This document shows, one piece after another, positions 5,195 to 27,188 of a stretch of DNA of 29,644 bases; the stretch's first letter is position 1, and each line of letters starts with the position of its first letter. The stretch covers positions 1-29,644 of IMG/VR virus record IMGVR_UViG_3300025132_000199; one strand, written 5' to 3'. The notes under the pieces are model-generated. The model saw nothing but the letters and a program-made list of their open reading frames with translations. It was not told where the DNA came from and made no database searches. The stretch comes from a virus. Made by a program: the position numbers and the translations under genes.

Positions 5195-6412
5195 ATGACT
5201 CGCAAAGCATTGGGCCAAGCCCGTCAACGTATCGCAGCACTTTGCGCTGCTTCAGGACACAAGTCCAGCCTCTACCCGTCACTCCGCATGTCGGAGTGCA
5301 AAGATCTGGAGGCGAAACACTACGGAGCGCTAGCCAACGTCGGCGGCCTCATGGTGGAGTACTTCATCGCCATGCGGCGACAGACAACCGAGTACCCGCC
5401 TCGCATGGTGGCTCGCTTGTACCAAGAGTTCGATGGCGACGTCATTGCCTACATGGAGTCCCTCACCAATGAGATGGGGGATTGGGTCCGCGACAAAACA
5501 CCGCCACCTCCGCCGCCGCCACCACCGCCGCCTCCGCCTCCTCCGCCACCACCCCCAGCGCCAGCCAAGCGCAGTGGTTCGACCGTGTTTGACAGAGCGC
5601 AAACCATGATCGACGAGGCGCTTACTGGCGGCATCATTGACAATCCCCACAACCAATTGCGGGAGGCACTGGCCTGTGTGCTTGCGTTTGGCAGGTGCTA
5701 CATGGCTGGTCCGTCGGGCACTGGCAAGACTCATGCTGCTACGCAAATCGCAACCATACTGGGCCGAGACTTCCAGTTTGCACCATGCGATGGTGACGCC
5801 AGCAAGTTTGACCTGCTCGGCATGACGACTGCGACTGGTGCATGGGAGGACAAACCCGTGGGCCGAGCGTGGCGTGAGGGTCATGTGTGTCTGCTTGACG
5901 AACTCGACAAGGCACCGGCTCATGCGACTTGCTCACTCAATGCCATCGTCAACTTCGACAAGCGGGTTGCGCTTGGCGACGCCATGGTTGACCGGCATGA
6001 CGGCTTTGCGCTGATCGCTACGGGCAACTCATCCATGGAAGGCCCGACTGGTGCGTACGCTACGGAGCGCCAGTCCGCTGACTTCGTGGCACGTTGGGAG
6101 CAACTCGGGGTGATGGTTCACTTCGACTACTGCCCGACTGTGGAGCGCAACATGCTTGGCGAATGGGCCAGCGAGCATGACCTGCTTGCCAAGGCACGTG
6201 AGAATCTCAAGGCTGAGCAAATCGACAGCCGTCGCACGATCCAATGCCGCACCATGGAGGGGTGGAGCATGTGGCGGAGCAGCGGGCTGAGCGTGGGCGA
6301 GACGGTCGGACGACTGTGCCGACTGTGGCAAGAGACTGAGGTACGCAAAGTGTGGCAGCACCTGCCTGCTTCTGAATTGAAGAAGGCAACAAGCATGCTC
6401 GGGTCGTGGTGA
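5195..6412 (+). CDS. MoxR/CobS-like AAA+ ATPase with polyproline linker
   Basis: A 405-residue protein in two parts. Residues 1-102 form a helical N-domain of unknown type. P103-P121 is an uninterrupted run of 19 prolines, then a short APAK spacer. Residues 125-405 are an AAA+ ATPase with Walker A GPSGTGKT (172-179), Walker B LLDELDK (Asp235-Glu236) and a sensor-1-like ATGNSS. The order and the DELDKAP box fit the MoxR/CobS type, which acts as a chaperone or remodelling motor with VWA-type partners. The next gene is a candidate partner. ATG 5195 follows AAGGGA and has its own promoter. The proline run should stall ribosomes without EF-P. Its substrate in the phage cycle is unknown. Confidence 0.85.
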   Translation: MTRKALGQARQRIAALCAASGHKSSLYPSLRMSECKDLEAKHYGALANVGGLMVEYFIAMRRQTTEYPPRMVARLYQEFDGDVIAYMESLTNEMGDWVRDKTPPPPPPPPPPPPPPPPPPPAPAKRSGSTVFDRAQTMIDEALTGGIIDNPHNQLREALACVLAFGRCYMAGPSGTGKTHAATQIATILGRDFQFAPCDGDASKFDLLGMTTATGAWEDKPVGRAWREGHVCLLDELDKAPAHATCSLNAIVNFDKRVALGDAMVDRHDGFALIATGNSSMEGPTGAYATERQSADFVARWEQLGVMVHFDYCPTVERNMLGEWASEHDLLAKARENLKAEQIDSRRTIQCRTMEGWSMWRSSGLSVGETVGRLCRLWQETEVRKVWQHLPASELKKATSMLGSW

Positions 6413-10432: not shown

Positions 10433-11106
10433 TCTACGCAAGGTTCTCTCCCCGCCCGGACGACAAGTCCGACTCCATCCAGACGCAACTGGAGGAGTGC
10501 CGCTCGTTTGCTAAGGCGAACGGGTGGCGGGTGGTGGGGGAGCATCACGACGAGCGCATGTCAGGTGCCGATCCGGATAGGCCCGGCCTGTGGGATGCCA
10601 TGGATGCCACCCCCAAAGGTGGCGTCCTGCTCGTCTGGAAGATGGACAGACTTGCGCGCAACTTGTATCTGGCTGAGGCGCTGCACCGCAAGGCGCGTGC
10701 GTCTGGCTTCACCATCCAAGCGTGCCGGGAAGGGATCGTGGATGACACGCCCGAAGGTACGCTCATCCGTCAGGTACTGGCGGCTGCCGCTGAGTACGAG
10801 CGCAGGCTTGTGCAGGTACGCACCAGCGTAGCCATGCGCAAGTACCAGCGTGACGGCAGGCGCATGTCACGCCACGCTCCGTACGGCTTTGAGATTGATG
10901 GCGCAAACCTCATCGAGAATCCACATGAGCAACGTGCCATCGACAAGTTCGTGGCATGGCGCGAGGCTGGCTACGGCTGGCGCAACATTGCCAACTTGGC
11001 TGAACAGCACGGGTTACCACGCCGGGGCAAAGAACACCAGCCCTCTACGATTCGGAAGATTGTTTTGCGAGAGCAGCAACGAAGGCAGGACAGTCAGCAA
11101 CCCTGA
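10420..11106 (+). CDS. Compact serine recombinase (resolvase/invertase superfamily)
   Basis: A 228-residue protein with a complete catalytic domain. Features visible are Y-A-R-F-S with nucleophile Ser10, ERMSGADPDRPGL, the helix KMDRLARN with conserved Arg, and GTLIRQVLAAAAEYER leading into the long dimer helix. After about residue 150 comes HAPYGFEIDGANLIENPHEQ, which starts the 'recombinase' domain of larger enzymes. The zinc-ribbon and coiled coil of true large serine integrases are absent, and the protein ends soon after an HTH-like segment (TIRKIVLRE). Its role could be inversion, resolution or integration; no flanking inverted repeats were found. The 3' end overlaps the convergent nuclease gene by 62 bp. 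Confidence 0.85.
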   Translation: MDCVIYARFSPRPDDKSDSIQTQLEECRSFAKANGWRVVGEHHDERMSGADPDRPGLWDAMDATPKGGVLLVWKMDRLARNLYLAEALHRKARASGFTIQACREGIVDDTPEGTLIRQVLAAAAEYERRLVQVRTSVAMRKYQRDGRRMSRHAPYGFEIDGANLIENPHEQRAIDKFVAWREAGYGWRNIANLAEQHGLPRRGKEHQPSTIRKIVLREQQRRQDSQQP

Positions 11107-14905: not shown

Positions 14906-14922
14906 TAGTACAGGAGTAGGTG

Positions 14923-15747
14923 ATGCCGTTAACTAACATCGACGAGCAAATGTACCGTGACTTGCCGCTGATGAATCAATCAGCAATCAAGCATGGTTTA
15001 AAATCCATGGCCCACATGAAGGCGTACATGGATGGCAAGATCAAATTCACATCCGATGCCCTGAGCCTTGGCTCACTGGTGCATGCCGTGGTGCTGGAGG
15101 AGGACATACTCCACGACCTGTATGCGGTCATGCCCAAGATTGACCGGCGTACCAAGGCTGGCAAGCAGGAGTACGCAGAGTTCTTGCAGATCAATGCTGA
15201 CAAAACTGTTTGCACGCAAGACGATTGGGATACGGCCATGGCTATGCGTGAGTCCGTCTGGTCCCACCCGGCATCCAAGTCTCTGCTCAAGCGCAAAGGC
15301 AAGACAGAGCAATCCCTGACATGGCATCACCCTTCTGGTGTGGACTGCAAGGGGCGCATTGATCTGCTGCTTGACGGCAAGGGCAGGCAGAAGCCGATGA
15401 TCGTTGACCTGAAGACTACGATCGACGCAAGCCCCGCTGGCTTCGCCCGCTCAGTAGCCAAGTACGGCTACCACTTACAGGCTGCGTTCTACAAAGACGG
15501 CATGCAACACGGAGAGAATCGCAACTGTGCGTTTGCAATTATTGCTGTCGAAAAAGTTGAGCCATATGCGGTTGGCGTGTATGTGCTTGACGATGCTGCG
15601 ATTAGCCAAGGAAGAAAAGATTACGAAAAGGTCTTGACTTCTTGGAAAAGCGCGTTACAATCTGGGATCTACCCGTCGTACTCTGATGCGCCGGAGACTC
15701 TTTCTTTACCTGAATGGGCAGTGACGCCCGAAACCCTAACTGTTTAA
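14923..15747 (+). CDS. RecE-like PDDEXK exonuclease
   Basis: A 274-residue nuclease of the exonuclease VIII/RecE-like PDDEXK class (DUF3799-type), expected to resect double-strand ends to give 3' tails for annealing. Key positions: LGSLVHAVVLE near 54 with the conserved His, GRIDLLL with Asp147, VDLKTT with Asp162 and Lys164, and YGYHLQAAFY as the helix with conserved Gln. The length fits a lone C-terminal RecE domain. The start is ATG 14923 with AGGAG upstream. It is followed 11 bases later by an SSB-like gene, a logical partner for single-strand annealing; no RecT/Beta annealing protein is seen in the window. Confidence 0.85.
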   Translation: MPLTNIDEQMYRDLPLMNQSAIKHGLKSMAHMKAYMDGKIKFTSDALSLGSLVHAVVLEEDILHDLYAVMPKIDRRTKAGKQEYAEFLQINADKTVCTQDDWDTAMAMRESVWSHPASKSLLKRKGKTEQSLTWHHPSGVDCKGRIDLLLDGKGRQKPMIVDLKTTIDASPAGFARSVAKYGYHLQAAFYKDGMQHGENRNCAFAIIAVEKVEPYAVGVYVLDDAAISQGRKDYEKVLTSWKSALQSGIYPSYSDAPETLSLPEWAVTPETLTV

Positions 15748-15758
15748 GGACACTCACA

Positions 15759-16115
15759 TTGAATATCAATGACGCTTTCCCCGGTAAATACTTCAAGGCT
15801 TCTGACGTAGCCGAACCCAAGACCATGACCATCACTAACGTGGGCATGGAACAACTGCAAGACGGCACGCAAAAGCCAGCCGTCTACTTCAGCGAATCTC
15901 AACAGGCATTTGTCTTGAACAAGACCAACGCCAACTTCATGTCTCAGGCTTTCGGTGCGCAAACCGAAGGTTGGACTGGCAAGCAGGTCATCCTCTACAA
16001 GGATCAGGCTGCATTCCAAGGTCGCATGGTTGACTGCGTCCGTGTCAAGGCGGCGGGTGGATCTGCTGCTCCGGCTGCGCCAGCCCCAGCCAACACCGAC
16101 GACGTTCCTTTCTGA
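15759..16115 (+). CDS. SSB-like conserved phage protein
   Basis: A 118-residue protein probably started by TTG 15759, with AAGGA eight bases upstream; no ATG fits. The pattern INDAFPGKYFKASDV, VYFSESQQAFVLNKTNANFM and WTGKQVILYKDQAAFQGRMV is a frequent phage replication-module protein with a beta-rich, OB-like look. The Ala/Pro linker and the extreme C-terminus DDVPF resemble the acidic tip of bacterial SSB that recruits partners. Single-strand DNA binding next to the RecE-like nuclease is the likely role, although the family's function is not proven to my knowledge. Confidence 0.65.
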   Translation: MNINDAFPGKYFKASDVAEPKTMTITNVGMEQLQDGTQKPAVYFSESQQAFVLNKTNANFMSQAFGAQTEGWTGKQVILYKDQAAFQGRMVDCVRVKAAGGSAAPAAPAPANTDDVPF

Positions 16116-16126
16116 GCAACGTGCCG

Positions 16127-16161
16127 CCCACTGCCGCTGCTCCTTGCGGCAGTGGGTCTTT
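16127..16161 (+). terminator. Hairpin with short T-run after the SSB-like gene
   Basis: CCCACTGCCGC (16127-16137) pairs perfectly with GCGGCAGTGGG (16146-16156); the loop is 8 bases and TCTTT follows. It begins 12 bases after the stop codon. It can act as an intrinsic terminator or attenuator, and it is also the first unit of the RNA array described next. Confidence 0.5.
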
Positions 16162-16411
16162 GCCTTCGGGCGACAAATCCTAATTTGACCGGAGCGGTTC
16201 TGCCGCTCCACATCTCTCCGCTCTGTCTGCTGCAAGTCAGGCAGAGCATTAGCCCTCCGGCGACAACCCCTTTCGGCCTGCTACTTTTTACGAAATTTGG
16301 GTAGCGGGCCATTAGCCTTCGGGCGACAAATCCTTGGCTTTGCATTGGCCTTGGGACTTTGAACCTACCTCTTGCTGTAACCAAGGGGTAGGATTAGCCT
16401 TCGGGCGACAA
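16127..16411 (+). ncRNA. Tandem array of a two-hairpin RNA motif (four units)
   Basis: Each unit is a 10-11-bp stem with its own sequence, a short linker, GCC-loop-GGC (UUCG loop in three copies), then GACAA. Stems: 16127-16137/16146-16156; 16220-16229/16238-16247; 16275-16284/16301-16310; 16364-16374/16382-16392. Shared segments (ATTA)GCCTTCGGGCGACAA start at 16162, 16248, 16311 and 16393. In units 2-4 the shared segment abuts the stem exactly and begins ATTA; unit 1 has TCTTT instead. The stems share shape but not sequence. Unit 2 changes only two bases of the small loop. An extra hairpin GGAGCGG/CCGCTCC lies at 16191-16209. The region is non-coding, between the SSB-like gene and a zinc-ribbon gene, inside a transcript ended at 16685. 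It is no RNA class I know. Confidence 0.7.
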
Positions 16412-16414
16412 CCT

Positions 16415-16627
16415 ATGCCTAGATTACTTACCGACGAAGTCCTTCGACATGTCACCATCTCTCCCATGTGTGAGTTGTGCGGCTGCGAGGATCTGACCTA
16501 CCTCGGGTCTTACTGGTATACTCCGAAAGACCAGCCAAAGACCTACGCAAAGTACATGTCGTGTCCTGAGTGCGGACACTTCGCCAAGTACAATGACGAG
16601 CCGGACAGTCCACGCACGCTGGCATAA
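16415..16627 (+). CDS. Small zinc-ribbon protein
   Basis: A 70-residue protein from ATG 16415. CELCGCED (near 19-26) and CPECGHF (near 50-56) form a four-cysteine zinc ribbon around WYTPKDQPKTYAKYM. The function is unknown; DNA or RNA binding is likely. There is no Shine-Dalgarno sequence: the start codon is three bases after the last repeat unit (GACAA), so translation may depend on that structure or begin at the internal ATG 16466. It is followed by a strong terminator, so it ends the rightward transcript. Confidence 0.6.
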   Translation: MPRLLTDEVLRHVTISPMCELCGCEDLTYLGSYWYTPKDQPKTYAKYMSCPECGHFAKYNDEPDSPRTLA

Positions 16628-16640
16628 GCACACCCTCCGT

Positions 16641-16685
16641 CCCCCCAGCCGTTCCAACTCCCTTGGCTGGGGGGATTTTTTATTT
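16641..16685 (+). terminator. Strong intrinsic terminator
   Basis: CCCCCCAGCC (16641-16650) pairs perfectly with GGCTGGGGGG (16665-16674), with a 14-base loop, followed by ATTTTTTATTT. It ends the rightward unit. The T-run contains the stop codon of the convergent giant gene (16680-16682). The opposite strand lacks a U-tract, so it is one-directional. Confidence 0.9.
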
Positions 16686-19600
16686 GGTTGCCTGCTGCGC
16701 GCGGCGCAACACTTCAAGTCTGCGGCGTACCTCGCTTGCTTTGCTGAGTGGTGCGTCCGGGGTCTGCACCACGCTGCGCGCAAACTGCCGGTCCAAGTAG
16801 TTGGCGTCAATTTGCACAGGCACATGCTTGCCACTGATGAGAGCAGGGATACTCTTCTTGCTGACGTTGGCCTGTCTCAAGATGGCGGCCACCTCACGGG
16901 GCTTGACACCCAGCGCAACGAGCGCATTGATCTGACGCTGGAACCCATCCATATTTTGTTGGCGATTGCGATTCACCATGGCGTAGGTTGATTCAAGTTC
17001 TCGCTCGCTCACCGTACCCCGACGCCCAGCAATCTTGCGCAAGTAGCCAGTCAGCGAAGACTCGTTGCGCGCAAACGTTGCTGCTCTGAACGAGAACGCC
17101 TGACGCGGGTCAATCGTCTCGATCTTCAGGCCAGTGGTTTGCTGGAACAAATGGTACGGCAGGCTGTAGGTCTTACCGTAATCATTGGTGTATCCCATGA
17201 CCGCTCGGTATGGAGTGCGGATGAACTGATCCACCAGTCCCGGCTCGATTGCGCCAAGGATGTACTTGCTTCCTTCCAACACACGCTGCGTCAGCGGGGC
17301 CGCGTCCAAGTAAACCTTGGAGCCAGTGCGCTTCTTGTTGCGCGCAACATCCAAGATGCGACCAAACAAAATCTCTTCACCAAAGAATGGATCAGTGATC
17401 TCGTTGACTGCTGACACCAATGCTTTCTTCAGGCCAATGTCATCAGCACGGAACATCGCAAGGATTGGCTTGGTGAAGTATGAGTGTGGGTCCACGTACC
17501 CAAGGTCAATGAAGCGCACCTTGCCTTCCTCGCCGGGCAGCAAAACCATCGGGCTGTTCTCGTTCCACGGTGCAGCCAGTTGCCGCACTGCTTCCAGTTC
17601 CTCGTCATCGAATCCGAGGATTGCCGCCGCAACTTCTTGCAGGACGTACGCACCCATGATCGCAGACAGTTGCCCGACCGCACGTTGCATACCAATCTTG
17701 CGGATCTCCGGGTTGTCACTGCGCAACTCTTTGTGCGTGAGCAAGATGCGGTTCACCGCAGTGCGGCCCACTTCCCACGGGAACGAAGTGAACGTACCCA
17801 TGAACGGAACTTGGCGCAAACCCTTGATGAACTTAGGAACGTTGTCGTAGTTCGGGTAGGTGTTCTGGATGATCTTGGCTACGTCTTGCTTGAGCGCATC
17901 AGGCACAGGCTGGCCGCTCTTTGCGTACGCATTGGAGTACCGCTTGAGTTCAGTCTCGTACGCGAAGATCTTCCAGATGTCATCTTCAGCCATGTACGCT
18001 TTGTTCATGAACTCGACTGTGCCTTGCGCTGCCTTGGCAGTCTTGGACGCAGCAGCGCGAGCGCCGCCACGTTCAGCCCAGCGGTTGGCCCACTCTTCTA
18101 CGCTCAGTCCACCTGCTTCTTGCACCGCATCAAACACTTCGCGGAACGAACCAGACTGCACAACCCCAAGCCGTACGTACTCTTCGTACTTCTTTTGCGC
18201 CGCTTCTGAACGCTGACCAAACAAGCCTGTAACGCCAACCAAGTCCTTCATCTTGATAGAGCCATTCGGGATATGCCCGTTGGCTACAGCAAACCCGAGG
18301 TTGCCCACCAAGTTACGCAGGTGAGTGAGTGGAGAACCAATGGTCTTGCTCCACTTCACACCTGAGTTGAACTTCATGTAGTTGCGCAACCACCACTGGT
18401 CAATGTGCGTGTTGGCTGCTGCTTCTTCAAACGCCTGCTTCAGTTCAGGTGTAGTACGCAAACCATTCAGTGGCGCAAACGCCATGCTTGACTTGGTTGC
18501 AAACTCAGCAACGTGGGTTGGGTCTACCTCGTCAGACTGAAGATCAGAGAACAAGCCCTCAGCCAAACCAAACTCTCGCACCGAGGACAGGAACTTGTGG
18601 TTCGCAGCGAGCGCAGCAATCTTGCCGATCGACTTGGTGTAGTTGATGTAAGGATCATCGTACTCACCCCACAAAGCCATCAGCCAATCAGGAATATTTT
18701 TGCGCCCCATCAAGATGCTCAGATCTTTGCCGCCGATCTTGGTGGTCGATGCAAGGATAGCCATGGGTGACTCGGCAGCCTTGCCGCTGTACAGCAACTC
18801 ACCAATCATTTGCTCGATCTGATCTTCGCTGGACTCAGGGAACTGCTCGCGCAACTTGGCCTTGGCATTGTTGCGCACTTCCTCTGGTACTTTGCTCGCC
18901 CACTTCGGATCATCGAACACACGGTACGAACGGTGCAGGTAGGTGTCACCGTTCTTGTCAATGCGCGCAGCCAACTTGCCCTCGACCACACCCTCATCAA
19001 TCAATCGCTTGCTCATCTTCTTGATGTGCGCACGCATAGACTGACCAGCCTTCACCAGTTCAGGGAAAGACTCCAGTGCGGAGAAGTCATTGGTAGTCAG
19101 AGCCTCGTTCACCGCTGCAAGTTTGGGCCGCTTCTCAGCAGGGATTGCATTGATTGCTTTCTTCAGTTCAGCATTGTTGTATCGCGCACGCTCCAGATCC
19201 GCACGGATCTCTGCGTCCTTGCGCAACTTCATGTCGAAGATTTCTTCTGGCAGGTTGCCTTCTTTATGGAAGTGCGACTTGACAAACCTACCCGCAAAGT
19301 CACGGGTGGACCTGACCGAATCCATGCTCAGCGAGTATTCAAAGTCAAGGTCAACCTCGCCAGCCTTACTCATCTCTGCCAACGTCGCTCTGATTTGCGC
19401 TGTCGGGAACGGAGTCACCCGGCTGCCTGCATCATACAAAGCAAACTCTTTGTCTGAATCGGAGGGATTACTCATCGCCGACAACATTTGTGCTGCTTGA
19501 GGACGCGCGGCTTTGCCCAACTCTCGTCTAGTTGCGGCATAAAATGGGTGAACAGTTATGTCTTTGAAGGCCGCTCTCAGTTTGGGATCAAGACCTACGA

Positions 19601-22600
19601 CTATTGGAGGAAGTTGTGCAGGTCTATTGCCTCGCTTTGCTTGCGCAGCAAAGTCCGACATGTACTGTTTGAAGTTGAAGTTTTCAGACCCCACCGGCAA
19701 CACTGATCCGCCAATTGCTGCAATAGCCTCTGATATAGTAGTCACAGAGCCATCCAATGGGTAGAGTCCCGCCATGCCAGACACGCCTATCAAGTCTCCG
19801 TCTGCGTCTAACTCCGGTCTTTCAACAACACCCCTGACAACATAGGGAACGCCGTGCTTTTTAGAAAGCCTTTCTGCCATGCGGGTGAACATGGGGATGT
19901 AGTTGGCTCGTCCTTTGGGTCCACCAAAAGTTGCAAGCAGTTTGGTATCAGTTGCCTTTCTGCCGCTTAGTACTGTTTGCGCCCAAGACGGAACAATCCT
20001 GCCAAAGATAGCCAGCCCAAGGCGAGCGTACTCGGGATAGCCAGTATCTAGCGCGACCTGTTTCCAGTCTACCGCTTCGTATCCGCCAAGCCCTTCAGCC
20101 TTGAAAGAGATCGATCTCCCAACAGTTACTACAAGTTCAAAGTCGGGCATCTGCTGCTTGCCCGGTTTCTTAGGCAAGCCTTTGTGAGTGAGCATCAGCG
20201 TCCCGTCGCCCGGATTGAACTTGACAGTGTCGAACATGTCGAACACACGCGCTGCTGACTCAGGTGTGAGTGAGTATTCAAACTCGTCATCAAAGTCAGG
20301 TTCTTCCATGCCCAGTGCTGCGAACGGGGATTGATCGGCCTCTTCCTCAGCATCTTTTTGCTTTTGCACCTTCACCGCGTGCAGGAAGTTGTCAACGTCA
20401 GTCGAGTCCATACCATCCGTGCGCCCGGCGAGATGCTCAAACACAACAGACTTTTGCGGTTCAAGCGTTTGCTCTTCCGGGTTGACAATAGTCATCTGAA
20501 AGACATCGGTACCACCGTAGCCGTCTGGCCTTTGTATGTTGTTATCCGTGAAGTCTCCCTTGAATACATCCCTGTAATCAAACTCAGCCAGAGCATCCGG
20601 CCTGTTTGCTGGAATGACATACATCCGACCATCTACATCTCCGTCTTGGTCAACTGCTGCCTCCACAACAACTGCGTGCGGGATTCCTGTTTTGTATGCC
20701 ATGTGCTTTGCGGCACGAGTCAAGAATTTTTGGTAGACAAGTCTTTGCGCGTTACCTTCTTCTTGGACAATTGAAAGGGTGAGAGTGTCAAAACTTACGC
20801 CTCCAGATTCACCCCTAGCGATGCGATCCTCCACCATCCGAGCCATGAGTTTGGGTATTGTAAGAGCCATGCGACGCTCGTACGCATCGTTGTGATCCCA
20901 CTCCATAAGAGAAGCATCTTCATTTACAAAGAACGAAAGGTTATGCTCAAAGAGATCGCCGCCCGACAAGCCTTCAATTTCTTGAGACGTTATGGCGGTT
21001 GTAATTTTATGGCCCTTTTCAGTGGTATAGACGTACGCTTCGGAGCGCGAGTCATACATGGTATCGACTTCAAATTCGATTGACCTAATCGACGTTGGCA
21101 GTTGACCAAGCGAATAATCAAAGTCCTCTGCGATAAAATCAACAGTTGAGTTTGGATCAGACAAAGACTCCATCAACTCAACGGCTGACCCCGCAACGTT
21201 GAAGCCGCTGCCGTGCGCGTAAGCAACTCTTTCTGTATCAATGTTGCGCCCGCGCAGGTTTTCAATATCTTGCCTGATGGCGACACCTTCGGTTCTTGAC
21301 CTTGGGGTAGAAGGTCTTGCGCTATCACCAGCACGGGTCGCCAGATTGTCTGCAATTCTGCTAAGGCCACGGGGCATGTTGCTTCGGTCAACCTTTTGAG
21401 TTGCAACCATGTCCAGATACTGGAGCAAATTAGAATCGCTGTAGAGCAAATCCATCAACAGGAATGGACCAGTATCAATAGCAGCCTTGCGGTTCATCAA
21501 CAAGCGGCGGGCGCGGTCGATTGAATCCTGCATGTTGCCTTCGTATCCGATGCGGAACCCCTTGCTTGCGTTCCACATAGCAACGTGTCCGGGCGTGATT
21601 GGCTGGTAACTCCTGTCCGCAGCAACCGCCAAGAACTCAGAACCCGCAAGCGTAAAGTGCAAGTCAGCGCGTCTGATTTGCTTGCCGCTACCCATGCCGC
21701 GCAAACGATCACGCACGTTCATGGTAGTAAACTCGCCACCACGGCTGACCACCACGGCTTGAAGCGGCTTTACCTCATCACGGCGGACTGCATCAAACTT
21801 GCCCAGTTCACCAACCTCAGTGATGTCAGCCAAAGAAAGTTCGGCAGCGTTTGCAGAAACAAACATCAGTCGTTCATATTGGCCGACCGACATGCCGCGC
21901 CCGATGTTGAATGGGAATGGAACATCAACCGCATCTTGCGTAGCGTTGAGCAAACTCTTGTTGATTCGGTGGTGTTTGTATGCAGCAAGGCCAAGCGCAA
22001 TTGCTTTCGCGTCTACCTCGGTACGAGCGGCAGCAGCAATAAACATCATGACCAAGTCTGGGTTTGCGTCCATTGCTTCAGGCTCAAGAGTCTTGAGAAT
22101 GCGCTCAAGAGAATCCATCTGCTTAGCCACTGGGTCAATCTTGCGGTAGCCGCCATCCATTTGGGCCATGACGCTAAACGTTCGGTTGAGTTCCCGAGCG
22201 CTGCGGTCTGCAATACGGGTAGGTCCAGACACATACTGCTTTGCGAATCGCGCCTTGGCAAACATAGTTGCCAGACCTTGGGCAACGCCAAGAGAATCGT
22301 TTAGGACAATGCTTTCCAGTTGGTCCTCATCGCCTCGGATGACCGCTTGCTCGATGTGTTCTGGGACTCTCCCGCCCGGTCCTTCGAGTGATGCCTCATC
22401 TGCGTTTCGCAAAAAGATATGTAGGTTATCAGTTCCACTGAATCCAATGACCCTATTTCCTTCGCGGTTAGTGGCCCACCGTCCAAAAGCAATTTCGTAC
22501 GCTCGTTCTGCTGTTCGTTTGTCAACGCCAATCCTTTGCTCGCTGCCGCTGCCGCCCATCATTTCGATGGCAGTGCGGCGCATTTTCAAGTTTTGCTTTG

Positions 22601-25600
22601 CCTTGCCAGACATCTTCATGTCCGCAAAGTTCAGCGAGATACCATCGCTAGTAGCCCGGTCGCCAGCAGTTTGCATAGCGTGTAGAGCAATCATCTCGAA
22701 CGAGAATCGCCCCTCGAACCCTGAGTCAGGCACTGTGCTAACCGCGTTGTACCGAATGATGTTTGCGTTCAGGACATCATTGCCCTGCTCAAAAGTCACG
22801 GCATACCCGTAGTTAGTACCGGGGAGCATAAAGAACTCGGCATCTTTCGGGATGTCTCGCGTGTTTACCTTGCCACGCAAACCATCAACCACACCTTCAC
22901 GTGCCTCTGCACCAGTAATCCAGTTGCCGCTAATCATGCCACGGTGCGCTTCAATGTTGTTGCGCCCATATGCGGTGAGCATTCGGTTTTCAATACCGAC
23001 TGGGTTTGTTGGCGACGCAAGCGAGAAGTCAAATTCTTCGGGGTCCATCTCGCGGCGTGGGTCGTAGTCCCCAAACCGCTCGAATCCGTTGTAGAACTCC
23101 TGTTCTTCTGGCGTCAGGTCTGGGTCTTCCGAAGCCTGCCGCTCAATTGCATCGCTGCCTTCAGACAAACCAGCAACGCGCTGCGTGAGTTCGTCCGCCA
23201 TGTTGGACAAATCGTTTTGCAGTTTTTCGTCTGTTGCTTGCGCCTCAAGAAGTTGCACCATTTCAAGTGCGCTGCTCAGGTCAGCGTCGTCAGCCGTTGG
23301 ATCGTTCAGTGTTTCTCTTACTGTCAGCAGGAGTCCGCTGACCCTGCGCTCAGTTTCTGTTTGCGGCTGGCTCTGCTTTGCAGGATCAGGAACGTCGACG
23401 TTGACCTCTGCCCCCTGCACCGGCAACTGCTTGTTTGACTCTTGACTAATCCTGCGCCGTGCCTCTGCACCACGCAAGATGTTGCGCCGCCTGCCGCCAG
23501 CCTTCTTGGATTCTGGTGTTTGCTCAGCAGGCCGCACATCGGCTGCCCTTGCTGCGGATGCGCTGACGGTCAGTTCAACAAACTGTTCGACGGTGAGGGT
23601 TTTAACAGTTGGCTCTGGCGTTTGCAGTTCATCTTCTGACATTGGTGAAGAGTTAGCCGCTGCTGTTGCCAGTGCAATTGCGTTGAGGGCGTCAACCACT
23701 GGGGTTTCTTCACGCAGATTGATGTCATCAAACGTGGTGCTTGCCGCGCTCAAGCCAAGTTCAACCGCTGGCTCAATTGTCGAATCAAACCCTGTGCTTG
23801 CCTTGGCTCCGGGTTTTGCGCCACGTGTTGTGCGCAGAGTAGCGCCAACTTCCTCGGCCACATTGAACAAGACGGCCAACTCACCTGCACCGGACACCCC
23901 CGCAGCAGACAAAACAGAATCTTTAAGTAGTCTGAGCCTGTCGGCAACGGTTTTTTTGCCTCCAGAAATACGTCGCAACACGGTGGCAAGTTCACCTTTC
24001 GATCTGCGGGTTGCCAAGTTTTCTACTGAGTAAGCAAGAACTTCCCGCAACAGCGTAGGGTTTTGCAAAAGCGCAGCAGCAGCCTGCTTTGAGTCGGCTC
24101 CCTCGGGTATCAAACCATTCTTGACCATTGCTGTGACTGCGCCCTCTTCGAGGATCGTTGGGTCGAGTGCCGTAATTGCATCTACAATTCCCTGCACTTT
24201 GCCCGTTGCTTCAGTCTGAATAACGTGCGTACCTTCGTGGAGCAAAAGAGCAGTCGCTACATAATCGGCCTCTTTGCCGTTCTTGACTGCTTCTTGGTAT
24301 TGAGGGTTGCTTGAGTTAATAAATACTGTGCCTGTTTCAGCGTTGTAACCTGCCGCCACCCCGCTTTTTTCTTCCGGCGAGGTAACAATTACAACTTGCC
24401 TGCCTGCTTTTGCCAGATCTGTGAGCAATTTCCTAAAGGTTTCGCTTAGTCCTGCTGGTGAAGCAATGTTGAAGCCGTCAACCAATTTGCCATTGACCAA
24501 GGTTGGCCTGCCCAAGATGGCAGAAACCTTTTCAAGCACTGTCTTTTGCGCTGGGGAGCCATCTTTCCCTGCTAACGCTGCCTCGGCAATGACTTCTTGC
24601 TCTGAACTAGGGAGCGTAGGTTGCGCACGGTCGATGTCCAGAAGCGCCTGCGGAGTGAGCGCTTGTACTGATGTGACTTGCCCAATGAGTCTCCTTTGCT
24701 GCTCGGACATTTGCGAAACACTTTGTGTCACCGCTCCGACGAACTGCTCAACAGTTGCGTTGCCACCCATAGCCCGATTGAATAGGTCTGCCGTCTCTTC
24801 GCTTACCTGCCCAGAAAGCAACTCGGCTCTTTTTTCTGCCGCAAGTTCTTGCGCCTCTGCCTCTGAGTACCCAAGGTTCTGGTAGTAATCAGACAAAGAT
24901 TCAGCCATCATGTCCGCAGTAGCAATTGCCTGCTCTGGAGACAAGCCTGCTTGAACCTGACCCTCTGTTGGCAAAGCACCTTCAGCGACGCGGTCTTGTG
25001 CAGCCGCAATTCTGTCCTGCTGCCTATTGATACGGACAGCCTGCCTGCCCACGCTTTCTCTGGCCTCAGCCATCAGTTCAGATCTTTGCTGATCTGTCAA
25101 GCCTTCGCTCATCCAGCCCAGTCCAGCAGCCTCCCAGTCTGATTGCTTGTTGGACTCGGGCGTGCTGTACTTAGTTGCGCTTCTGTCTGAATCTCCTGAA
25201 TCACTTGGGTTTTCTTCACCTGCCAAGGCGTATGCGGCGTCAGGCATGGTTTCAGCCATTTCAACGCGCCGATGTGTAGTGCCATCCTCTGCTTCAAAAG
25301 TTTCATCAGGGTTGCCAAAAGCGTGCAGCCTGTTCTCCGCAACGCTTTGTCCAATACCAGATATGCGTTGCCAAAGAGATCGTTCTCTTTCTTGCGAACG
25401 GATGCGGGGCAAGCCGTCTACGCCAAACCCGTTCTGGTACATGAACATTTTTTGCGCTGTGTCTTCGCGCCATCTCTGCTCGACCTCTGATTGGTTTTCC
25501 GCTGTAACTTGTCCAAGCGGGTTGCCATCAGCATCAACCATTGTTCTGCCATCAATGTGCGTGGCAGGCTGCCCAATTGCAAACCTTGGCTTTTTGGCTG

Positions 25601-27188
25601 CATCGCCGTAAGTCATACGCCCGAGGTGCGAGGCTTCTAAAGAGTTGATCCGGTTGGTCAGACTCATGTTTCCGAGGGACGCTCCGGCAGCAGAACCCAA
25701 AATACCGCCGACCAAGAAGTCCTGAAGTTTGTCTTTGAAGTACCCATCGTAGAAGATGTCGTCTTCTGATCTTTCAAGTTGCCCCTTCAGCATCGCTTGA
25801 ACGCCATCGAACATAATGCCTTCAAGATATTCTTGAGAACCTTCTTCGATGAATCCGTTTACACCATCAGCAAGCAGGCGCGTAGCCCCTCGACGCGATG
25901 CCGCAGCCATTGCTCGACGCCCAAGCCCGCTTTTGAACAGCATGCTTTGCCCGCCAGCAATGAACCGAGTTGAAAGCGCAGCCATGGTTCCTGCTGTAAA
26001 ACTGTCGATCAGAGCGTTTGCCCCAGCAAGTTGCGCACTCATGCCCTGCTGCTGGTAAAACCGCAAGCGGTCATTGTTGGTTTGCGCTGCTGCAATAGCA
26101 AAACTAGACGCAAGGAATCTTGGAGATCTGAACAAAGCGCCAAACGTAGAAGGCGCAGCGGAGGCACCGCCGGTCGCAACACCCGCAGCGATCTGTGCAA
26201 TAAACGATGGCGCGGCCTCTGCCACTTGCCCAAGTGTCTCATACCCAGCCAAGTCAGTTACCACTGGCTGTGTGCCAAAGCCAAACTCTTCTTGGAACAA
26301 CTCATCCACGCTGCCGTAGTCACGACTGGTGTTGAGGTCGAGCCTTGCTTCGGTTGCGCCGCGTCGCTTTCCGAGCGTGCGGTTGTACCAGTCGCTCATA
26401 GCAACTGAGTTTTGAAGCGCAGTCTCGTACAAAGATGTTGGCATCTCATAGAACAACTTGGCTGTGCCGCGCGCAAACCCACCAATCATCCGCTCGTTGA
26501 GAAGAACATTTGCTTTCTCAAACACATCCATGTCTTCAGAAAGCAGTAGACGGGTTTGTGCAAGTTGTGAACCACGCCGAGCAATATCGTTGGTGGTTTT
26601 GTTTGCTTCAACAAACCTCATTAGTTCGGTTGGCGACGCGCCCGCTTCAAATGCAGCCAGCCTTGCCCCGTCCTTCGCCAATCGGTTTTCCGCGAACAAA
26701 GCGTTTGCTTGACTGCGGGTCATTGCGCCTTGATCTAAACGAGGTGGCAAGTAGTTGTGATGAACCTTCATCAAACCATGCAGTGATCCGTCATCGTTGC
26801 GCACTTCAACGTCAACAAACTCTTCAGGCGCAAACATGTGCTGCTTGGCAACATCGTCAAGCGTAAACTTAGACCCATCTCGTTTCAAATACCCATTGCG
26901 GTCCCTGCCTCGCACCATCTCTCTGGCAGCGTGGGCAAGAGTTGCGTCTGCCGCCGTCCTTCTGGCGCGCTGCTGGGCTTGCCGCGTCGCAACAATTTGT
27001 TTTCCTCGCTCCGACCCGCTTCGCAACAAGGCTTCATCAGGTAGCGCCTCTTCTTGACGCGCAGCCTGATCGGTCTTTGCAAGCACAGCGCCAGCGCTAG
27101 CAACACTGTCAACGCGAGGAGGCTGGTTACTGGGCTGCACCAAGTCAACGTTGCGTGCCAGATCAATCGGGTCTTGTGCTTGTGTCAT
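16680..27188 (-). CDS. Giant modular polyvalent virion protein (3,502 residues)
   Basis: The frame is uninterrupted over 10.5 kb. N-terminal helices are followed by Gly/Ala-rich hydrophobic stretches (about 325-370 and 395-505), as in phage internal or ejection proteins. HEGTH at 984-988 is an HExxH zinc-protease motif. F(D/E)(F/Y)SL recurs at 1386, 2023, 2303 and 2616, between domains. The modules after 2023 and 2303 look duplicated (G2168-IPHAVVV versus G2446-VPYVVRG, at offsets 145 and 143). The C-terminal 900 residues contain IGSPLTHLRNLVGN, typical of large polyvalent phage proteins, and a hydrophobic helix near 3170-3190. The expected role is an internal virion protein injected with DNA to breach the envelope and condition the cell. 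It follows the coiled-coil gene with no gap (TAAATG). Confidence 0.75.
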   Translation of the reverse strand: MTQAQDPIDLARNVDLVQPSNQPPRVDSVASAGAVLAKTDQAARQEEALPDEALLRSGSERGKQIVATRQAQQRARRTAADATLAHAAREMVRGRDRNGYLKRDGSKFTLDDVAKQHMFAPEEFVDVEVRNDDGSLHGLMKVHHNYLPPRLDQGAMTRSQANALFAENRLAKDGARLAAFEAGASPTELMRFVEANKTTNDIARRGSQLAQTRLLLSEDMDVFEKANVLLNERMIGGFARGTAKLFYEMPTSLYETALQNSVAMSDWYNRTLGKRRGATEARLDLNTSRDYGSVDELFQEEFGFGTQPVVTDLAGYETLGQVAEAAPSFIAQIAAGVATGGASAAPSTFGALFRSPRFLASSFAIAAAQTNNDRLRFYQQQGMSAQLAGANALIDSFTAGTMAALSTRFIAGGQSMLFKSGLGRRAMAAASRRGATRLLADGVNGFIEEGSQEYLEGIMFDGVQAMLKGQLERSEDDIFYDGYFKDKLQDFLVGGILGSAAGASLGNMSLTNRINSLEASHLGRMTYGDAAKKPRFAIGQPATHIDGRTMVDADGNPLGQVTAENQSEVEQRWREDTAQKMFMYQNGFGVDGLPRIRSQERERSLWQRISGIGQSVAENRLHAFGNPDETFEAEDGTTHRRVEMAETMPDAAYALAGEENPSDSGDSDRSATKYSTPESNKQSDWEAAGLGWMSEGLTDQQRSELMAEARESVGRQAVRINRQQDRIAAAQDRVAEGALPTEGQVQAGLSPEQAIATADMMAESLSDYYQNLGYSEAEAQELAAEKRAELLSGQVSEETADLFNRAMGGNATVEQFVGAVTQSVSQMSEQQRRLIGQVTSVQALTPQALLDIDRAQPTLPSSEQEVIAEAALAGKDGSPAQKTVLEKVSAILGRPTLVNGKLVDGFNIASPAGLSETFRKLLTDLAKAGRQVVIVTSPEEKSGVAAGYNAETGTVFINSSNPQYQEAVKNGKEADYVATALLLHEGTHVIQTEATGKVQGIVDAITALDPTILEEGAVTAMVKNGLIPEGADSKQAAAALLQNPTLLREVLAYSVENLATRRSKGELATVLRRISGGKKTVADRLRLLKDSVLSAAGVSGAGELAVLFNVAEEVGATLRTTRGAKPGAKASTGFDSTIEPAVELGLSAASTTFDDINLREETPVVDALNAIALATAAANSSPMSEDELQTPEPTVKTLTVEQFVELTVSASAARAADVRPAEQTPESKKAGGRRRNILRGAEARRRISQESNKQLPVQGAEVNVDVPDPAKQSQPQTETERRVSGLLLTVRETLNDPTADDADLSSALEMVQLLEAQATDEKLQNDLSNMADELTQRVAGLSEGSDAIERQASEDPDLTPEEQEFYNGFERFGDYDPRREMDPEEFDFSLASPTNPVGIENRMLTAYGRNNIEAHRGMISGNWITGAEAREGVVDGLRGKVNTRDIPKDAEFFMLPGTNYGYAVTFEQGNDVLNANIIRYNAVSTVPDSGFEGRFSFEMIALHAMQTAGDRATSDGISLNFADMKMSGKAKQNLKMRRTAIEMMGGSGSEQRIGVDKRTAERAYEIAFGRWATNREGNRVIGFSGTDNLHIFLRNADEASLEGPGGRVPEHIEQAVIRGDEDQLESIVLNDSLGVAQGLATMFAKARFAKQYVSGPTRIADRSARELNRTFSVMAQMDGGYRKIDPVAKQMDSLERILKTLEPEAMDANPDLVMMFIAAAARTEVDAKAIALGLAAYKHHRINKSLLNATQDAVDVPFPFNIGRGMSVGQYERLMFVSANAAELSLADITEVGELGKFDAVRRDEVKPLQAVVVSRGGEFTTMNVRDRLRGMGSGKQIRRADLHFTLAGSEFLAVAADRSYQPITPGHVAMWNASKGFRIGYEGNMQDSIDRARRLLMNRKAAIDTGPFLLMDLLYSDSNLLQYLDMVATQKVDRSNMPRGLSRIADNLATRAGDSARPSTPRSRTEGVAIRQDIENLRGRNIDTERVAYAHGSGFNVAGSAVELMESLSDPNSTVDFIAEDFDYSLGQLPTSIRSIEFEVDTMYDSRSEAYVYTTEKGHKITTAITSQEIEGLSGGDLFEHNLSFFVNEDASLMEWDHNDAYERRMALTIPKLMARMVEDRIARGESGGVSFDTLTLSIVQEEGNAQRLVYQKFLTRAAKHMAYKTGIPHAVVVEAAVDQDGDVDGRMYVIPANRPDALAEFDYRDVFKGDFTDNNIQRPDGYGGTDVFQMTIVNPEEQTLEPQKSVVFEHLAGRTDGMDSTDVDNFLHAVKVQKQKDAEEEADQSPFAALGMEEPDFDDEFEYSLTPESAARVFDMFDTVKFNPGDGTLMLTHKGLPKKPGKQQMPDFELVVTVGRSISFKAEGLGGYEAVDWKQVALDTGYPEYARLGLAIFGRIVPSWAQTVLSGRKATDTKLLATFGGPKGRANYIPMFTRMAERLSKKHGVPYVVRGVVERPELDADGDLIGVSGMAGLYPLDGSVTTISEAIAAIGGSVLPVGSENFNFKQYMSDFAAQAKRGNRPAQLPPIVVGLDPKLRAAFKDITVHPFYAATRRELGKAARPQAAQMLSAMSNPSDSDKEFALYDAGSRVTPFPTAQIRATLAEMSKAGEVDLDFEYSLSMDSVRSTRDFAGRFVKSHFHKEGNLPEEIFDMKLRKDAEIRADLERARYNNAELKKAINAIPAEKRPKLAAVNEALTTNDFSALESFPELVKAGQSMRAHIKKMSKRLIDEGVVEGKLAARIDKNGDTYLHRSYRVFDDPKWASKVPEEVRNNAKAKLREQFPESSEDQIEQMIGELLYSGKAAESPMAILASTTKIGGKDLSILMGRKNIPDWLMALWGEYDDPYINYTKSIGKIAALAANHKFLSSVREFGLAEGLFSDLQSDEVDPTHVAEFATKSSMAFAPLNGLRTTPELKQAFEEAAANTHIDQWWLRNYMKFNSGVKWSKTIGSPLTHLRNLVGNLGFAVANGHIPNGSIKMKDLVGVTGLFGQRSEAAQKKYEEYVRLGVVQSGSFREVFDAVQEAGGLSVEEWANRWAERGGARAAASKTAKAAQGTVEFMNKAYMAEDDIWKIFAYETELKRYSNAYAKSGQPVPDALKQDVAKIIQNTYPNYDNVPKFIKGLRQVPFMGTFTSFPWEVGRTAVNRILLTHKELRSDNPEIRKIGMQRAVGQLSAIMGAYVLQEVAAAILGFDDEELEAVRQLAAPWNENSPMVLLPGEEGKVRFIDLGYVDPHSYFTKPILAMFRADDIGLKKALVSAVNEITDPFFGEEILFGRILDVARNKKRTGSKVYLDAAPLTQRVLEGSKYILGAIEPGLVDQFIRTPYRAVMGYTNDYGKTYSLPYHLFQQTTGLKIETIDPRQAFSFRAATFARNESSLTGYLRKIAGRRGTVSERELESTYAMVNRNRQQNMDGFQRQINALVALGVKPREVAAILRQANVSKKSIPALISGKHVPVQIDANYLDRQFARSVVQTPDAPLSKASEVRRRLEVLRRAQQATK

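Follow-up and report, generated by a model that had tools for sequence, protein, structure and literature searches.

The described RNA closest to the element reported here is STAXI (RF01728), whose units carry UUCG loops and stand in tandem near SSB genes (PMC2864571). As read from two STAXI loci (L358 and L359), its hairpin 1 has a stem of ~5 bp and a loop of 12 nt, which base-pairs with the tail that follows the UUCG hairpin. The put RNAs of HK022 are phage RNAs of ~70 nt that form two stem-loops downstream of early promoters (PMC9378689); they contain bulges, non-canonical pairs and a triplex, there is one copy per early operon, and they suppress terminators lying downstream by way of the zinc-binding domain of RNAP β′. 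The phage and marine structured RNA manA (RF01745; PMC2864571) has a different fold of ~190 nt with a pseudoknot.

The window, that is, the whole stretch of DNA analysed, is a complete IMG/VR virus record of 29,644 bases, and its array of two-hairpin units belongs to a real new RNA family, absent from Rfam 15 and supported by covariation. At gathering score Rfam 15 gave no match in the window, a permissive Rfam scan of the region returned chance-level matches only, and ten relatives searched at gathering score gave only two hammerhead ribozymes, elsewhere in contig L127; permissive thresholds yielded no family that matches the units in relatives either. The preliminary description knew of no class with this plan; Rfam agrees, but STAXI is a close analogue, having tandem structured units, UUCG tetraloops, two hairpin elements per unit and a position by SSB or DNA-handling genes. 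Here, likewise, one to four tandem copies lie near SSB, RecE or ERF genes, and the string GCCTTCGGGTGAC occurs both in STAXI locus L358 and in our relative L067. The element is nevertheless not STAXI, since the STAXI model gives no match (0 of 21 records at E≤0.1, none in the window region at E≤5), the loop–tail pseudoknot is absent (pairing of 3.45 nt against 3.47 nt when permuted, P 0.59, 20 units) and our covariance model R1 gives no match to STAXI. The STAXI model itself works, with matches in 15 of 79 Enterobacteriaceae genomes. Moreover, hairpin 1 has 9–13 bp here, in contrast to ~5 bp in STAXI, and is followed by a 4-nt linker. The element may still work like STAXI. The L358 repeats (STAXI locus of G449, around 1501–1657) contain in GCCTTCGGGTGAC nearly the L067 block, by convergence or very distant relation.

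With put the family shares the form of a phage RNA of two stem-loops, often just past a promoter; the layout of two hairpins and a 4-nt linker is present, with a promoter-like site upstream of only some arrays. Unlike put, it has a short GCC/GGC second hairpin, a GACAW tail and one to four copies, sometimes with no downstream gene: in L067, L068 and L124, where only a convergent gene follows, genes dependent on put-type readthrough are absent. HK022 put is at most a functional analogue. The two-hairpin units do not match the manA covariance model (RF01745), although one manA-type copy lies inside the L112 array. CRISPR or TIGR guide arrays were rejected because the variable parts here are self-complementary hairpins at irregular spacing, and retron msr and integron attC were dropped because their defining parts are lacking.

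Phage noncoding RNAs associated with recombination and SSB genes are few, and this family is a further one. Seen beside STAXI, it suggests that tandem UUCG-capped RNAs arose in unrelated phage groups next to the same genes; the idea of a partner common to both, SSB or a recombination protein, can thereby be tested.

Architecture of the array in the window

The array belongs to a short plus-strand operon, in which it is preceded by a RecE/exonuclease VIII-like gene of the PD-(D/E)XK type (DUF3799; 14920–15747; Pfam PF12684, 1.4e-38; phrog_412 exonuclease VIII, 4e-75) and, directly upstream, by an SSB-like gene (15759–16115; phrog_21613, 3e-9) with a C-terminal DDVPF tail read from the sequence. 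Relatives of the latter, found by tblastn, flank the element in L001, L067, L068 and L124. Its product is a putative SSB by virtue of the acidic PF tail and the position, phrog_21613 being a PHROG to which no function is assigned. Behind the array an ORF encodes a 70-aa zinc-ribbon-like protein (16415–16627, plus strand; weak matches to phrog_6422 and phrog_17723, no Pfam match). Its ATG at 16415 does stand three bases (CCT) after unit 4, as had been noted, and this gap holds no Shine–Dalgarno sequence. An intrinsic terminator-like hairpin (CCCCCCAGCC...GGCTGGGGGG-A-TTTTTT; 16641–16682, plus strand) then closes the operon, facing a giant gene of 3502 aa (16680–27188, minus strand) that is convergent with it. 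The C-terminal part of the giant gene product is distantly related to Pseudoalteromonas, Cellulophaga and Pelagibacter phage proteins, some annotated as structural. Elsewhere in the window, an AAA ATPase gene (AAA_5; 5195–6412, plus strand) has a run of ~20 prolines preceding the ATPase domain.

Between the SSB-like and zinc-ribbon-like genes stand four tandem units on the plus strand, each with a 10–11-bp stem, a 4-nt linker, GCC-tetraloop-GGC and a GACAA tail; all these parts can be read from the sequence where the preliminary description placed them. Unit 1 (16126–16176), also recovered by the descriptor scan, comprises a long hairpin (16126–16157) of 11 Watson–Crick pairs plus a closing G·U with the 8-nt loop TGCTCCTT, the linker CTTT (16158–16161), GCC-TTCG-GGC (16162–16171) and GACAA (16172–16176). 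Unit 2 (16220–16266) has a 10-bp hairpin (16220–16247) with loop CTGCAAGT, then ATTA, GCC-CTCC-GGC and GACAA ending at 16266. Unit 3 (16275–16329) is made up of a 10-bp hairpin (16275–16310), ATTA (16311–16314), GCC-TTCG-GGC (16315–16324) and GACAA (16325–16329), and unit 4 (16364–16411) of an 11-bp hairpin (16364–16392), ATTA (16393–16396), GCC-TTCG-GGC (16397–16406) and GACAA (16407–16411). In units 2–4 the shared block begins on the very base after the stem (16248, 16311 and 16393), again as first described. The spacings of 90, 63 and 82 reported for unit starts are correct from block to block; the hairpin starts are 94, 55 and 89 apart. An extra 7-bp hairpin without the block, GGAGCGG-TTCTG-CCGCTCC (16191–16209, plus strand), is also kept ahead of unit 2 in the relative L001.

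The pattern GCCNNNNGGCGACAA has four matches in the whole record, all on the plus strand and all within the array, and its reversed control has none in this record. The array region folds at −137.9 kcal/mol against −102.6±5.2 kcal/mol for dinucleotide shuffles (z −6.79, 0 of 100). Model R1 was built from eight units, window unit 1 included (63.8 bits for that unit, which is in the model-building set), and recovers the three window units outside this set at 24–33 bits (unit 2, 24.4; unit 3, 33.4; unit 4, 32.3).

Relatives and conservation of structure

Relatives were obtained from IMG/VR by three routes: block patterns, a pattern for the long small hairpin, and homology to the SSB-like and RecE-like proteins. 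A unit descriptor, requiring a stem of 8 bp or more, a short linker of A/T, a small stem beginning with G, and GACA, had 45 matches over both strands of 2.5 Mb; with other tetramers in place of GACA it had 3–13. This gives at least 14 independent loci, the window and 13 further phage loci, with one to four copies per array: L001 (=L051), L002 (=L010), L014, L067, L068, L090, L096 (=L128), L097 (with L110), L106 (with L121), L111 (the weakest), L112 (with L127), L124 and L130 (=L143). Having served as a search pattern, the block owes part of its apparent conservation to the search. L067 and L068, though, came from SSB homology ahead of any pattern match, so that the block was tested there free of pattern selection; L067 retains ATTA-GCC-TTCG-GGT-GACA, and L068 has TTT-GCCCC[21 nt]GGGGC-GACA, in which the small hairpin is longer. 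Further units were found as neighbours and not by their block (L014 unit a, L096 units b and c, L111 unit a, L112 unit b). The AUAAGG long-form pattern led to L130/L143 besides L014, and the pattern TTTGCCNNNNGGCGACAA in viral contigs gave no new member among the matches listed.

The window region had no blastn match in INPHARED and no isolate with the element was found; every relative is a metagenomic contig. Genome contigs scanned by pattern, and 399 (pattern) and 300 (model) Burkholderiales genomes, contained no qualifying unit, although the model search of bacterial genomes scored few candidates per genome and could have missed copies. The family is probably larger than the loci listed. 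Single-block matches at stop codons in L083 and L084 were left out of the count, as they have no hairpin 1: ATTAGCCTTCGGGCGACAT stands exactly at the stop codon (TGATTAGCC...) in L083 (3101–3120) and L084 (3347–3366) with no preceding long hairpin, and is an isolated block or chance.

When 25 units are aligned, pairing holds in 98.8% of all cells and in 98.5% of those of the long stem, where 12 of 12 pairs show two-sided compensatory changes. Covariation scores 0.673, compared with 0.166 in shuffles and no more than 0.138 when partners are slid; because the alignment had been fitted to the model, such figures lean towards structure, yet the slid controls are still far lower. Hand-written stems contain 28 G·U and two A·C pairs (p 9e-7), both A·C pairs being due to a bulge in L014; this comparison is possibly biased, since the stem search admitted G·U pairs, although it tolerated one mismatch too. 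The G·U over A·C asymmetry points to one functional strand, the same in every array as that of the flanking genes. The small hairpin is capped by RNA-type tetraloops (UUCG, CUCG or YUCG generally, GAAA), CUCC, or other loops on a longer stem. The long form reads GCYCC..AUAAGG.CCGNN..NNCGG..GGRGC, and the longer stems covary (e.g. GCCCC..GGGGC and GCTCC..GGAGC).

Stem covariation, wobbles that are almost all G·U and not A·C, and RNA-type tetraloops show that the element acts as RNA, and the array is a structured RNA kept for shape while its sequence drifts. Structural selection on tandem two-hairpin units, as originally proposed, is thus borne out: the covariance search found relatives, their stems keep pairing and the array is not coding. 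A coding reading was rejected, the block lying in different frames across units (FAFGRQ and LPSGDN in L106) without a conserved ORF.

Genomic setting and candidate roles

Within a virus record the clear units are confined to a single locus, 40-kb contigs included, and SSB, ERF or RecE adjoins most arrays. In the window, L001, L067, L068 and L124 the array is directly 3′ of an SSB-like gene, with a giant convergent gene close by; in L130 and L097 it follows SSB/ERF; and in L096, L106/L121 and L112/L127 it forms an untranslated RecE leader. Behind 8 of the 14 arrays (0.89 expected) there is a terminator-like hairpin, mostly 11–17 nt past the last block. Sigma70-like promoter sites just upstream score high in L067 (TTGACA-17-TAAACT), L106, L112 and L096, and the combined p for upstream promoter-like sites over the 14 arrays is 5e-4; no outstanding site precedes the array in the window, L001, L068 or L124. 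L067 reads as a free-standing promoter–module–terminator with only the convergent gene beyond, a layout to which L002 and L090 are similar, with weaker promoters.

A partner-binding RNA would fit all contexts with one mechanism, from arrays lacking a downstream gene to those that form RecE leaders, and is therefore preferred to antitermination or to control of the next gene's translation; the preference is tentative and not a demonstration. Specifically, we suggest that the array is quite possibly a noncoding RNA of the phage recombination (RecE/ERF–SSB) module, whose tandem modules would bind a partner as decoy or regulatory tether. The RNA may be made as a short transcript (from its own promoter to the terminator) or within the RecE or SSB mRNA. 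The constant block (NUUW, small hairpin, GACAW) would be a docking site for a phage or host protein, insulated and presented by the long hairpin, with tandem copies raising avidity; once bound, the RNA could act as a decoy, or as a tether regulating recombination genes. The first candidate partner, by proximity only, would be a protein of the recombination module such as SSB. Against a decoy or tether, the RecE leaders of L096, L106/L121 and L112/L127 look cis-regulatory. Translation control of the next gene, raised in the preliminary description beside sponge and small-RNA roles, fails as a general role, because in most relatives that gene is far away, has its own Shine–Dalgarno sequence, lies beyond a terminator or is convergent.

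A post-transcriptional role in cis, in which the array, lying between cistrons or in the 3′ UTR, protects or processes the messages of RecE, SSB and their neighbours or paces their translation, would suit strong hairpins with a terminator behind them, right after SSB/ERF stop codons or ahead of RecE. We think it unlikely, however, given that a generic stabilizer could do without a conserved NUUW/GACAW block and would be seen at the ends of other genes too, whereas each record has a single locus. Slightly more doubtful is transcription control in cis by the nascent RNA, in which modules would make RNA polymerase pass or stop at terminators before the next gene, as in put- or nut-like antitermination or attenuation. 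The two-hairpin unit recalls put (PMC9378689), also in its place downstream of promoters, for a sigma70-like promoter precedes several arrays and a terminator lies just downstream of eight. Yet L067, L068 and L124 have no co-directional gene before the convergent giant gene, which makes put-like antitermination less likely; there is no terminator after the array in L096, L106 or L112; most long hairpins lack sequence conservation, whereas put RNAs resemble one another in sequence; and copy number varies from one to four.

A DNA-level element, forming single-strand hairpins for replication, recombination or an operator, was also proposed for STAXI (PMC2864571) and would account for the adjoining recombination genes. 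This is very unlikely here in view of the G·U to A·C asymmetry, which indicates one functional strand, the RNA-type tetraloops, the constant use of the flanking genes' strand and the manA-type RNA module within one array. Hardly conceivable, finally, is the antitoxin RNA of a type III toxin–antitoxin system (ToxIN type), which combines tandem RNA repeats and a terminator with a toxin gene: L001 does have tandem structured repeats, then a terminator and a small gene, but no toxin gene was found (downstream genes are RecE, the zinc-ribbon-like gene, integrase or none, with no ToxN-type domain by Pfam in the window neighbours and those of other loci judged by reading), the repeats are not identical, and arrays can be free-standing, three having no downstream gene on their strand.

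Module types and turnover

The stems had been described as unrelated in sequence, which holds for most of them and not for unit 2: its hairpin belongs to a sequence-conserved type, GCYCTGTCTGYTGCAAGTCAGGCAGRGC, present nearly unchanged in six other IMG/VR contigs (L001, L051, L096, L112, L127 and L128). The loop is 8 nt long in roughly half of the long hairpins, and the frequent loop AUCCACC(C) is found in L001, L067, L068, L096 and L106, with near-forms in L097, L124 and L014. Since the GCYCTGTCTGYTGCAAGTCAGGCAGRGC type and frequent loops recur, the stems are not all unrelated, and some types are common to several phages. AUCCACC as a general terminator loop was rejected, strong hairpins with this loop occurring in these contigs almost only within units. 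In L002 a true intrinsic terminator (10513–10550; 7 T) adjoins the unit, and its loop shares AUCCACCC with hairpin 1 of other units.

L112 differs from its close relative L127 by a ~190-nt insertion between copies of GCCTTCGGGCGACAACTT. The insert is a manA-type RNA (RF01745; 829–997, minus strand; E 4e-10 to 7e-10) at 43.3 bits, below the gathering score of 55.2; it lies in the RecE leader with two block copies flanking it and holds the conserved GUGACUGAAUAA and GUAAGGU segments. No manA RNA was found in any other record of the family. Further, L124 resembles L001 minus the second unit, the sequence past the last block being alike. Copies come and go at the shared block, and homologous recombination between direct repeats would be a source of unit gain and loss. 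The L112/L127 pair, one manA-type module apart, indicates that such arrays trade RNA modules. It is a doubtful extension of this that the whole is an RNA cassette array, in which gene-less structured modules (plain hairpin, sequence-conserved hairpin, aptamer-like manA RNA) are set between constant N-UU-W/small hairpin/GACAW joints, gained and lost unit by unit between related phages, and expressed with recombination genes as one modular noncoding RNA.

The ~300 nt past the unit in L097, L110, L130 and L143 (L097, 1480–1830; L130, 6050–6400, minus strand) are conserved and apparently noncoding, with 18 two-sided pairs from only two distinct sequences; a covarying GCCCGTYT..ARACGGGC stem marks a candidate larger RNA. 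The two type II hammerhead ribozymes of L127 (RF02276; 814–877 and 1283–1345, plus strand), both above gathering score, are separated by ~470 nt on the same strand and precede the array by ~4 kb.
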